This document shows positions 15,817 to 19,282 of a stretch of DNA of 19,282 bases, in pieces; the stretch's first letter is position 1, and every line of letters begins with the position of its first letter. A program made the position numbers and the translations under genes. Source of the DNA: an uncultured Planctomycetaceae bacterium (lineage in GTDB: Bacteria; Planctomycetota; Planctomycetia; Planctomycetales; Planctomycetaceae); assembly GCA_903823545.1 (NCBI GenBank), contig CAIJTL010001438.1, positions 1 through 19,282 on the forward strand. The letters run 5' to 3'. The notes under the pieces are model-generated. The model saw only the letters and a list, made by a program, of their open reading frames with translations, ran no database searches and was not told the DNA's origin.

Positions 15817-16125
15817 TCACTTCAAGATGTTGCATTTGGGCAATGTCTTCTGGAGTTCCTCGATTCCGGCGTCCGTCACCTGCGTGCAGGGCAGGTTGAG
15901 GTGATAGCGGTTCCTGAGTGGGGCGAGTTGCTCGAGCCCGATGTCTGTCACCTGCGTGTGGTCCAGATTGAGCCAACTGACGTTCGTGAGTGGTGCGAGC
16001 TCCTTGAGCCCGGCGTCTGTCACCTGCGTGCCTGACAGACCAATGCGAGTCACCGGTTTTAAGGGAGAGTTGTCGTCGCGGAAAACTTTCCCGCCGAGCG
16101 ACTCCACAAACGAGACGGCCCGGTC
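15817..16125 (-). pseudogene. Orphaned LRR module, probably the lost C-terminus of the kinase protein
   Basis: In the frame +1 relative to the kinase gene, immediately at its stop codon, the sequence reads DRAVSFVESLGGKVFRDD and then three leucine-rich repeats of about 23-24 residues, each containing a TQVTD[AI]G[LI] motif, ending in KCNILK and a TGA. The pattern 'LGGKV...P...V..I.LSGTQVTDAGL' is the usual entry into LRR arrays of planctomycete proteins. The kinase frame ends in a short acidic linker (APEPEPHTDDNT) exactly where this begins, so a one-base change would fuse the two. A separate gene is possible from GTG at 16107 (96 residues) but no ribosome-binding site is visible. LRR content is firm; pseudogene status is inferred. 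Confidence 0.65.
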
Positions 16126-19100
16126 AAGTGTTGTCGTCGGTGTGAGGTTCAGGTTCAGGAGCGGTCCCGACAACCAAAACCAAACGAAAGCCCATGTTGT
16201 CGCGCTGAAAGTTCGTCGGGGTTCGGAGACGCATTGCCGAACGGCACTCGAATGGGGCGGAGTGCCAATCGCCCCCGCGCATCGGTCTTGGATGATTGTC
16301 AGTGGGAAATGGACTGAAGGGGTCAAGTGCGGCATTCTTTTGAAACTGCGAATAGAACGCCGGATCCCAACTGTCCTGAACCCACTCCCACACATTGCCA
16401 TGCATGTCTGATAACCCGAACGAGTTTGGCTTCGACTCACCCGCGGCATGTGTGCGGATGCCGGAGTTCCCGCTATGCCAGCCAGCCGAAATCAGATCTT
16501 GGTCATGATCGCCGCTCCAGAACCGCGTTGTAGTCCCGGCCCGGCAGGCGTATTCCCATTCGGCCTCTGTTGGCAGTCGGTAGCCGGTACCTTCCAGCAA
16601 CGTCACCGATTCACCGGAACGGGAGTAGCACGGTTTCAGCGTCTCCTGCTGGCTCAGTTTTGCGCAGAACTCTGCCGCGTCATACCAGCTCACCATTTCT
16701 ACTGGATGGTTGCCAGTCTCCATGTTTGCAATCTGGCCATCCCCTTTTCCCGTCGCCGAGAAATGTGATGGGTTGGCTCCCTTCACCTGCTGGTACTGCG
16801 ACTGCGTCACCTCAGTCACCCCGACGTAGTTCGGCTTTGTGAGAATCACTTTGTGCTGCGGACCTTCGCTCTGAACGTGCTCTCTCCAATTGGAATTAGA
16901 CACATTGAGCGCCGCTTCGATCTCCTCGGGCGTACTCCCCATCATGAACTCGCCGGGTGGAACAAGGCGGAACTTCATGCCGATCGAGTTCTCGTACACG
17001 ACCGGCACTCCGAGGTGCATCGCCCACTTCTCTTGATGGACCCTGGCCTGCGCTTCGTCGAACGGGGCGACGGCGGGCGGCGGGGCATTCGCCTCCCTCT
17101 TGCCCAGCAGCTCCTTCACGGCGTCAGCAACCAGCACCACACGGAACCCCGCCTCGGCGTATGTGTGATAGTAGAGGCGACTCGACGAGCGGACTAACTC
17201 CGGGACTTGCATAAAACTTCCACCCCGGCGCATCGGCTCGGAACCGGCGGAAAGTGGGCTGAAAGGGTCCGTTGCGACATTCGCTTGAAACTGCCCATAG
17301 AACTTCGGATCCCAGCCGTCCTGCACCCATTCCCACACGTTGCCGTGCAGGTCTGACAATCCGAACGGATTGGCTTTCAACTCGCTAACAGCATGCGTGC
17401 GGCCGCCATAGTTGCTGTGGCACCAGCCAACCCGAATCAGGTCCTCGTTCTCATCGCCGCTCCAGAACCGCGTCGTGGTCCCGGCCCGGCAGGCAAACTC
17501 CCATTCCGCCTCCGTTGGCAGTCGGTAGCCGGTCCCTTCCAGCGATGTCACCGTTTGATCGAAGCGGAAGTTGAACGGCTTCAGCTTCTCCTGCTGGCTC
17601 AGTTTGGCGCAGAACTCAGCCGAGTCGTAGCCGCTCACCGTTTCCACCGGATAATCGCCGGTCTCCAGGTTGGCGACCGCCTCTTTCCCTTGACCCGTGG
17701 CCGAGAATTGCGACGGGGTCGTTCCCATCACTTGCTCGTACTGTGACTGTGTCACCTCAGTCACCCCGACGTAGATCGGCTTTGTGAGAACCACTTTGTG
17801 CTGCGGACCCTCGCTCTCGATTTGCGTTCGCCAGAACTGTAAATGTCCCTGTAGCCCAGGCCGCTTCAGCTCCGCTTCGATCTCCTCGGGCGTACTCCCC
17901 ATCAGGAACTCGCCCGGTGGGATGAGCCGGAACTTCATCCCGATGCTGTTGGTAAACTCGACCGGTAACTTGAGATGCGCGGCCCAAGCCTCTTGATGCT
18001 GTTGGGCTTGCTCGGCATTGAAGGGAGCAATCGCTCGTGGAGGAGCCTTTGCTGCGTCATGCGAGAGGCCCTCTGTCTGAGGTCCCTCCGAGGGATTCGT
18101 TGCCGTGAGGTCCAGATCCGTTGGCCTCGGATTGCGACCGCGACTGAAGACAACTGCCAATACGACGCCCGCTAACAACGCGACCGCGATGAGCGTGCGT
18201 TTCAATTTGGCCGTCACGGGGCCGCGTGACGAGCCTTGCAACGCGATGCTCGAAGCAGGCAACCGGCTCTGACCAATCGAATGGGGGTGGGCCGTCGTTG
18301 GCCCGTCACGTCGTTCGCGATTTGGGGCCTGACATCGCGTCAGCAGGTCGGCCACTTCTTTCGCTGTTTGAATGCGATCTTCCGGTTGCTTGGCCATGAG
18401 CTTCTCAATGACCTCGCATAACCAATCGGGGATCGCCGGATTCAAGGATTGAATCGGTCCGGGTTCGTGATCTGTCACTCGCCGCAGCACGACGATCGCG
18501 CTCTCCGCATGAAACGGCGTCTGCCCGGTACAAAGCGAATACAGCACGCTCCCCAAACTGAAGAGATCGCTGCGATGGTCGAGCGCCTTTCCATTGGCCT
18601 GCTCCGGTGACATGTATTGCGGTGTCCCCGCAATGAAGCCAGACCGAGTAATCGCCGACTCCGACGCCACGCGAGCCAACCCGAAGTCGGTGATTTTAAG
18701 TCGAGAACTTGGCGAGCCGGGGTGCGTCAGCCCCCGGACCGACCCGTCGTCCGTTGTCCGGGGGCTGACGCACCCCGGCTCGCCATTTTGACCGTCCAGC
18801 AGAATATTCGCCGGCTTGATATCACGATGAATCAGCCCGCGTCGGTGAGCGGCATCTAGGCCTGACGCGATTTGAATTCCGAACTGCACGATCTCGTCGA
18901 CCGGGAGCGGTCCGCGTTTCATCCGGTCTTGCAGCGACTCGCCGTTGATGAGTTCCATCACGAGGAACGGGATGCCGTTCGCTTCATCGACGGAATAAAT
19001 CGTGACGACGTTGTCGTGCCGCACCGCAGCCGCAGATTGAGCCTCTCGCAAGAACCGTTGCACGGCCTCGGCGTCCGCTGCCAAATGCGGAGCCAACACT

Positions 19101-19231
19101 TTGATGGCGACATCCCGCTTAAGCTTTTTGTCGTGAGCCTTCAGAACGATCCCCATCCCTCCTTTGCCGATCGTCCGTTCGATTTCAAAGTTGCCCAAAC
19201 CCGACATGAAGGGAGCAGATTCCAAATTCAC
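16124..19231 (-). CDS. Serine/threonine protein kinase with two FGE-sulfatase (SUMF1-like) domains
   Basis: A 1035-residue protein. The PknB-type kinase domain has the glycine loop GKGGMGIV (22-29), Lys44 in VAIK, Glu63, HRDIKPAN (135-142), DFG (182-184) and GTPQYMSPE (202-210), so it should be active. An extra peptide of about 25 residues (149-174), encoded by a perfect palindrome, sits between the catalytic loop and DFG. A membrane helix follows (about 346-362), then two homologous FGE-sulfatase domains (about 424-702 and 744-1022), each with NSIGMKFRL.PPGEF.MGS, GYRLPTEAEWE, HGNVWEWVQD and a closing GFR. The active-site cysteine pair of formylglycine-generating enzymes is not evident, so they may be sensor domains. 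Start is GTG at 19231 without a clear ribosome-binding site; ATG at 19207 is an alternative. The reading frame stops just before an LRR module. Confidence 0.92.
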   Translation of the reverse strand: MNLESAPFMSGLGNFEIERTIGKGGMGIVLKAHDKKLKRDVAIKVLAPHLAADAEAVQRFLREAQSAAAVRHDNVVTIYSVDEANGIPFLVMELINGESLQDRMKRGPLPVDEIVQFGIQIASGLDAAHRRGLIHRDIKPANILLDGQNGEPGCVSPRTTDDGSVRGLTHPGSPSSRLKITDFGLARVASESAITRSGFIAGTPQYMSPEQANGKALDHRSDLFSLGSVLYSLCTGQTPFHAESAIVVLRRVTDHEPGPIQSLNPAIPDWLCEVIEKLMAKQPEDRIQTAKEVADLLTRCQAPNRERRDGPTTAHPHSIGQSRLPASSIALQGSSRGPVTAKLKRTLIAVALLAGVVLAVVFSRGRNPRPTDLDLTATNPSEGPQTEGLSHDAAKAPPRAIAPFNAEQAQQHQEAWAAHLKLPVEFTNSIGMKFRLIPPGEFLMGSTPEEIEAELKRPGLQGHLQFWRTQIESEGPQHKVVLTKPIYVGVTEVTQSQYEQVMGTTPSQFSATGQGKEAVANLETGDYPVETVSGYDSAEFCAKLSQQEKLKPFNFRFDQTVTSLEGTGYRLPTEAEWEFACRAGTTTRFWSGDENEDLIRVGWCHSNYGGRTHAVSELKANPFGLSDLHGNVWEWVQDGWDPKFYGQFQANVATDPFSPLSAGSEPMRRGGSFMQVPELVRSSSRLYYHTYAEAGFRVVLVADAVKELLGKREANAPPPAVAPFDEAQARVHQEKWAMHLGVPVVYENSIGMKFRLVPPGEFMMGSTPEEIEAALNVSNSNWREHVQSEGPQHKVILTKPNYVGVTEVTQSQYQQVKGANPSHFSATGKGDGQIANMETGNHPVEMVSWYDAAEFCAKLSQQETLKPCYSRSGESVTLLEGTGYRLPTEAEWEYACRAGTTTRFWSGDHDQDLISAGWHSGNSGIRTHAAGESKPNSFGLSDMHGNVWEWVQDSWDPAFYSQFQKNAALDPFSPFPTDNHPRPMRGGDWHSAPFECRSAMRLRTPTNFQRDNMGFRLVLVVGTAPEPEPHTDDNT
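16912..17904 (-). repeat. Duplicated FGE-domain DNA within the kinase gene
   Basis: The two FGE-sulfatase segments are similar at DNA level. For example 33 bases at 16912-16944 are identical to 17872-17904 (offset 960), encoding the GSTPEEIEAE/A region. Other near-identical blocks cover the VTEVTQSQY and GTGYRLPTEAEWE regions. This points to intragenic duplication, possibly with later gene conversion. Confidence 0.75.
18711..18784. repeat. Perfect 74-bp palindromic element inserted in the kinase coding sequence
   Basis: Left arm 18711-18739 and right arm 18756-18784 are 29-base exact reverse complements, starting with GGCGAGCCGGGG, around a 16-base loop (18740-18755). The element lies within the kinase domain and is translated in frame on the minus strand. 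In this frame both orientations of the element are free of stops and give the same outer peptides, GEPGCVSPRT and VRGLTHPGSP. The first 11 bases of the arm recur at 19272-19282. Confidence 0.93.
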
Positions 19232-19239
19232 CGTGCCAT

Positions 19240-19281
19240 ATTCGGATTTCAGCGAGCCAAATTCAGATTTCGGCGAGCCGG
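19240..19281. repeat. Imperfect 21-bp tandem repeat upstream of the kinase
   Basis: Unit 19240-19260 and unit 19261-19281 align over 21 bases with four differences. Both contain GCGAGCC, and the second runs into the GGCGAGCCGGG start of a further copy of the palindromic element at the window edge. This lies just upstream of the kinase start codon, so it may overlap its promoter region. Confidence 0.6.
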
Positions 19282-19282
19282 G
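19272..19282. repeat. Start of a second copy of the palindromic element, cut by the window edge
   Basis: The last 11 bases, GGCGAGCCGGG, are identical to the first 11 bases of the 74-bp palindrome at 18711. The match ends because the window ends. With only 11 bases it is suggestive, not proven. Confidence 0.45.

Follow-up and report, generated by a model that had tools for sequence, protein, structure and literature searches.

REP doublets that move as units tied to RAYTs (REPINs) are known from Pseudomonas fluorescens SBW25, and the portion of that paper used here describes them as extragenic (PMC3116915). In-frame REP dimers of 20–30 residues have been reported from several phyla including Verrucomicrobia, with DNA polymerase I among the proteins and Planctomycetes named among REP hosts, in the sections of PMC3733652 drawn on here. 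The same sections describe recB of two Xanthomonas species, which carries different REPs at about the same site, and other genes of one category, in which the REPs occupy different sites (PMC3733652).

The window analyzed here, a stretch of 19,282 nucleotides from an uncultured Planctomycetaceae bacterium, carries a related element inside a Ser/Thr kinase gene. Like the SBW25 REPINs as presented in that portion of PMC3116915, it consists of two inverted REPs and a spacer, has a high copy number, and belongs to a family whose REPs lie beside a transposase gene, in this case in relatives. With the GTAG- and CGTC-tagged intragenic REPs it shares the form of a 20–30-residue dimer inside real proteins, DNA polymerase I included, but it has GYGAG in place of GTAG (PMC3733652, same sections). 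The sequence-only reading had likened its behavior to that of Rickettsia palindromic elements, and this likeness was borne out, since palindromes are inserted in frame in unrelated protein genes (here two kinases, DNA polymerase I and two PSCyt2/PSD1 proteins). The Rickettsia elements are nevertheless set apart by description: they belong to another phylum and, according to the sections of PMC3733652 used, end in CGTC, which the window unit does not; the family is not classed among them here. The features of the locus are as follows.

16124..19231, minus strand: host gene (1035 aa), encoding a Ser/Thr kinase domain and two FGE-sulfatase stretches (ORF, Pfam)
18680..18688, minus strand: DFG motif, residues 182–184 (sequence; columns invariant in the kinase alignment)
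18710..18739, plus strand: left arm, one REP unit, consensus GGYGAGCCGGNNGGCGTYAGCCCCCGGAC plus an outer T (inverted-repeat scan, genus-wide unit search)
18740..18755, no strand: REPIN spacer, 16 nt (inverted-repeat scan)
18756..18785, minus strand: right arm, second, inverted REP unit (inverted-repeat scan, genus-wide unit search)
18710..18784, minus strand: translated REPIN, kinase codons 150–174, GEPGCVSPRTTDDGSVRGLTHPGSP (ORF translation, doublet survey, PknB alignment)
18806..18829, minus strand: catalytic loop motif HRDIKPAN, residues 135–142 (sequence; H, R, D, K, P and N columns invariant in the kinase alignment)
19272..19282, plus strand: GGCGAGCCGGG, beginning of another REP unit, upstream of the kinase and truncated at the contig end (sequence)

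The 1035 residues of the host frame are counted from a GTG, and the frame is open upstream as far as the contig end. In the encoded protein the Pkinase domain (PF00069, E 8.9e-47) precedes the two FGE-sulfatase stretches. When it was aligned to solved PknB kinases, residues 150–174 remained unpaired, with residue 149 corresponding to PknB 153 and residue 175 to PknB 152. The insert thus sits in the turn at PknB residues 152–153, between the catalytic loop and DFG, which from kinase anatomy we take to join strands beta7 and beta8.

An inverted-repeat scan found the palindrome that had been noticed from the sequence alone. The perfect arms and the 16-nt spacer were as described, but the arms had been called one base pair short at each end: they are 30 nt each (not 29), 100% complementary, and the whole palindrome is 76 bp (not 74). 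Likewise, the in-frame read-through of about 25 residues in the HRD–DFG interval held, with its span corrected from 149–174 to 150–174. Four of the six reading frames of the element are open; both orientations give the same outer peptides because the element is a palindrome. Each arm alone is an imperfect palindrome capable of forming a hairpin, read in the sequence as CCGGGG, TGCGTCAG and CCCCCGG. A chance origin is excluded, since resampled loci gave no inverted repeat scoring at least 18 in 147,790 bases and the unit recurs in 12/12 genomes of the genus with a reversed-pattern control of 0.

Orthologues lacking the insert, which the sequence-only reading had anticipated, were recovered by a protein search that yielded 16 proteins with 76–84% identity over residues 1–320. 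Fourteen of these have an HRD–DFG loop of 20 residues (like ILLESQNEPGEPNVVRVKIT), one has a loop of 31 residues, and one has no motif. The window insertion is therefore derived. The loop of the window kinase spans 39 residues, a net gain of 19 codons (57 nt) over the 20-residue orthologues. As this is less than the 76-nt palindrome, some 18–19 nt of host sequence were probably lost or rearranged, the opposite of the proposal that extra bases had arrived with the insertion. Nor does GQ join SRLK directly once the element is removed, as had been supposed: 14 of the 16 close orthologues show EPGEPN-like residues there. In the orthologue from genome G007, the loop contains GGCGAGCC, which is also the start of the REP unit; this match may reflect microhomology or chance. 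A TAG occurs within the aligned stretch of this orthologue (L050, G007:C113:979-3705), and the database protein that matches it has 824 aa, so that the second FGE-sulfatase part may stand apart or have been lost.

The element is a member of a dispersed family of paired, inverted REPs. Searches of its own genome, which the sequence-only reading had proposed, returned 63 BLAST-type matches and 58 occurrences of a 14-nt core at up to 1 mismatch (reversed control 0). A 27-nt unit (up to 1 mismatch) was present in 12/12 genomes of the genus, from 5 copies (G003) to 156 copies (G006), and its control gave 0 in each. As a BLAST query at E ≤ 0.001, the element matched 20 of 40 genomes, comprising 12/12 of the genus (its own included) and 8/28 others, most of the latter with weak matches. 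Among named genomes at least 113 stretches matched, and all 80 listed bear planctomycete names. Complete doublets numbered 33 in the window plus 46 stretches of its own genome, counted with a script that accepts only a plus unit followed by a minus unit; the list of single units held no close pair in the opposite order. The family thus combines two inverted REP units around a short spacer with high copy number and dispersal in the genome, as REPINs do. The foot of its hairpin reads GYGAG, not GTAG, and for this reason we did not file it under the GTAG-tagged REP super-family. Several contigs end at or within REP units (the window at 19272–19282, C247, C1187, C1083 and C1603), and copy numbers are therefore probably underestimated.

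We also searched for a RAYT that could mobilize the family. Of 40 genomes, 34 have Y1_Tnp genes, and the window's own genome gave 4 matches. The RAYTs closest to the Pfam model were rejected as mobilizers: at up to 4 mismatches, their 60 loci (L029–L048, L225–L264) contained only two distant look-alikes of the window REP (L029, L264), and the REPs that accompany these RAYTs bear different tags, e.g. GTAG, GATAG and GAAAG. A divergent type was reached by querying with the RAYT of G008:C85. One such gene, in G001 (L326), lies between REPs of the window family, and another in G004 (L327), whose frame is broken, lies among close variants of the window REP. Other divergent RAYTs have other REPs on both sides (F2-type at L325, F3 at L336, F4 at L330), and these families also occur in kinase genes. 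The check for RAYTs suggested by the sequence-only reading thus found such genes, with one flanked by the window REP in a relative only; in the window's own genome, which is 88% complete, none flanked by the window REP was found. The divergent-group member of that genome (L329) is without such REPs in view. One of the four Y1_Tnp matches there, a RAYT (L095), has a window REPIN about 1.5 kb away and GTAG-tagged REPs as its direct neighbors. At that locus (L095 2300–5100, contig C771) the RAYT and its GTAG-tagged REPs stand beside a putative type I CRISPR cas7 gene, with the window REPIN family just before that gene.

L326, L329 and L330 are without the Tyr that L325 has after the HUH motif and have Trp there instead. 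We take this Tyr to be catalytic in RAYTs, so activity of L326 is doubtful; judged by sequence, the three proteins would be either inactive or dependent on another residue. RAYT genes and REPs are associated in the relatives, and the element itself was probably moved by a RAYT.

The SBW25 REPINs are described as extragenic in the part of PMC3116915 used here; by contrast, of the 33 doublets here, 13 fall within stop-to-stop frames that reach 400 aa or more. The other 20 are not in frames of that length. Five doublets sit firmly inside known proteins: two kinases (that of the window and C4), DNA polymerase I, and a pair of PSCyt2/PSD1 proteins, in which PSCyt2 precedes the insert and PSD1 follows it. 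The remaining 8 of the 13 lie near the start of a frame, have one side without a domain, have no Pfam match or were unscanned (one in L113). The encoded peptides are alike across unrelated proteins, e.g. GEPGGVSPRT...VRGLTP.GSP. Peptides of this kind (e.g. GEPGGVSPRT...VRGLTPPGSP), when they recur in unrelated proteins, are to be read as translated mobile DNA and not as domains.

DNA polymerase I of the same genome (L096) carries the window REPIN at residues 381–409 and a weaker inverted repeat from residue 431, between the 5'-3' exonuclease and a 3'-5' exonuclease-like region. Among 11 genomes of the genus with a polymerase frame longer than 900 aa (G006, where the gene is not whole, was left out), this linker contained an inverted repeat scoring at least 15 in 6 and none in 5. 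The repeats belong to the window family in G000 and G001 and are other sequences in G002, G010, G007 and, weakly, G004. Linkers filled by different inverted repeats across species are seen at loci L096, L455–L458 and L465. The linker behaves like the kinase turn in that different REP families refill it.

We then examined the HRD–DFG loop in 72 kinases from fetched loci, drawn from the best search matches, mostly from the genus and at least 7 from outside it. An inverted repeat scoring at least 14 was found inside the loop in 18 of the 36 kinases with loops of 29 or more residues and in 0 of the 36 with shorter loops; nine of the latter have one elsewhere in the domain (8 in the activation segment, 1 N-terminal to HRD). 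The seven kinases from outside the genus had no inverted repeat in the loop. Two kinases of the window's own genome, C4 and C669, have weaker inverted repeats in the loop. A stricter scan (score at least 18; 52 of 60 loci having the motif) assigned 11 repeats to the loop, 6 to the activation segment of a single orthologue group and 3 to the domain end; the rest of the kinase domain had none, another 9 fell in other parts of the same frames, and 12 lay beyond those frames. In that orthologue group, inverted repeats follow DFG at L190, L195, L196, L199, L207, L212, L215 and L223, from family F11 in L190 and L195 and F4 in the other six. An in-frame REPIN of family F3 lies 30–56 residues before HRD in the kinase domain of L054.

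The loop repeats fall into about 10 REP families by our own grouping and labels; several are GTAG-tagged, so that GTAG families do occur in the same turn as the window element, and one starts with CGTC. Each family was found elsewhere in the fetched DNA (up to 3 mismatches), with reversed controls of 0 except for the low-complexity F5 (2). The window family itself occupies the same turn in two further kinases, L100 (in another frame) and L169; the loop copies of L100 and L132 are decayed. The C4 paralogue, 66.2% identical to the window kinase outside the loop, has an imperfect copy of the window family in the same turn and another frame, and the different frame speaks for a separate insertion. 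The turn between HRD and DFG is a repeated landing site for different REP families. Sequence-specific targeting of the turn is not favored, as families, frames and flanks differ among the inserts.

Filled turns are a minority in the window's own genome: the window kinase and C4 have them among 24 readable kinases of the 30 best Pfam matches, a sample biased against filled loops since Pfam rank disfavors inserts, and C669 is a further case. Outgroup loci (L295–L324) had the motif in 27 of 30, with loops of 12–13 residues in 25 and of 15 and 17 in two, and no inverted repeats; being top Pfam scores, these too disfavor inserts and prove nothing about genus specificity. Among 118 readable proteins from the protein search, 71 have loops of 12–14 residues and others up to 69. 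P0045 and other proteins have loops with inverted-looking peptides, e.g. LPLGEGGRRPDEGAG...PHPGPLPEGEGE. Seen as protein only, these loops point to further REP-like repeats occupying this turn in other planctomycetes.

Closely related kinases differ in the state of this turn. Five that are 92.0–94.5% identical outside the loop (L133, L165, L167, L168 and L271) include two with plain 14-residue loops and three with filled ones (one GTAG family, two F5), and L202 and L220, which are 93.8% identical, carry different REP families. In a quick tree of 90 kinases from which the loop had been omitted, the REPIN label (20 rows, C4 and C669 set by hand) requires at least 14 changes, 9 of them forced by starred branches, and shuffled labels average 18.3; gain and loss are indistinguishable on this tree and some branches are long. 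Between the window kinase and L050 (20-residue loop), pairwise values outside the loop are dN 0.046, dS 0.252 and dN/dS about 0.18. Six other kinase pairs, one with both loops empty, gave dN 0.020–0.035, dS 0.30–0.50 and dN/dS 0.06–0.10. The kinases stay constrained by purifying selection, the window pair less than the others, and filled kinases still look functional.

In-frame REP insertion as such is already known (PMC3733652, in the sections used here). Repeated insertion into a kinase loop did not come up in our searches. Those sections make no mention of a kinase loop and place the REPs in other genes of one category at different sites, unlike the single turn filled here across a paralogous family. 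The main text of a paper on planctomycete kinase expansion, the part of PMC11032199 searched, has no occurrence of insertion, palindrom or indel. Our search, which lay mostly outside subscription journals, found no report of REPs recurring in this loop. The sequence-only reading, which knew of no planctomycete equivalent, is refined as regards intragenic REP dimers, already described from several phyla in the same sections of PMC3733652, and the kinase-loop recurrence goes beyond it. Its core stood (an in-frame mobile palindrome akin to the Rickettsia elements, with other copies, orthologues lacking it and RAYT genes present), with the identification as a REPIN added and the length arithmetic revised. 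Of the two outcomes that it had named as refuting, a genome without further copies and distant orthologues all sharing the peptide without a DNA palindrome, neither was observed.

We consider it quite likely that these are RAYT-mobilized REPINs that persist at sites where the protein fold can accommodate them. Built from two inverted REPs around a short spacer, such an element would be non-autonomous and would most likely move as a single-stranded hairpin through a RAYT-type HUH transposase. The window copy would have entered the kinase gene in the HRD–DFG turn after the split from the close orthologues. The unit leaves stop-free frames and would therefore be read as about 25 residues while the gene stays under purifying selection. 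Insertions may land in many places, with selection removing those that disturb the fold and keeping those in exposed turns and linkers. Such tolerance would explain why different REP families refill the same few places: the kinase HRD–DFG turn, the kinase activation segment and the DNA polymerase I inter-domain linker. The recurrence is observed, and tolerance is its probable cause. Local formation of the palindrome within a single gene (through template switching or inverted duplication) and an error of assembly were both rejected as highly improbable because the family is dispersed. The perfect arms and a draft assembly of 1707 contigs that often end at REPs might suggest such an origin, but homologous copies occur in 12/12 genomes of the genus and in named records of other projects, and about 500 bases separate the window copy from the end of its contig.

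It is also improbable, though less so, that the element is kept for a structure in mRNA or DNA, a stable hairpin acting in pausing, cleavage or supercoiling control with the peptide as a by-product. The 150-nt segment containing the element has a folding energy of −90.5 kcal/mol and a 30-bp stem, and functional REP roles in RNA are discussed in the sections of PMC3733652 used here; yet many copies are decayed, including those in loops, and the choice of the same turn in paralogues fits protein tolerance better. A somewhat stronger candidate, although still doubtful, is adaptive capture, in which REPIN loops are positively selected in kinases as added docking, regulatory or phosphorylatable segments and the REP pool serves as a source of peptides. 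The clustering of inserts in a single turn of a large kinase family and the exchange of REP families between near-identical kinases would fit. However, the inserts differ in family, frame and peptide, so that they reveal no shared function, DNA polymerase I linkers follow the same pattern, and low dN/dS outside the loop says nothing about selection on the loop itself.

These observations link REPIN/RAYT mobile DNA, the large planctomycete kinase families and the evolution of protein loops, which are usually studied apart. Because natural pairs of near-identical kinases with empty and filled turns exist, the cost or benefit of a 25-residue insert by the active site is measurable. There is a small chance that the turn is an evolutionary docking site, where RAYT-driven insertion, exchange and loss involve REPINs from many families and where the new surface segments of paralogous kinases are then used in signaling. 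If so, mobile DNA would be a standing source of kinase loop diversity in these planctomycetes.
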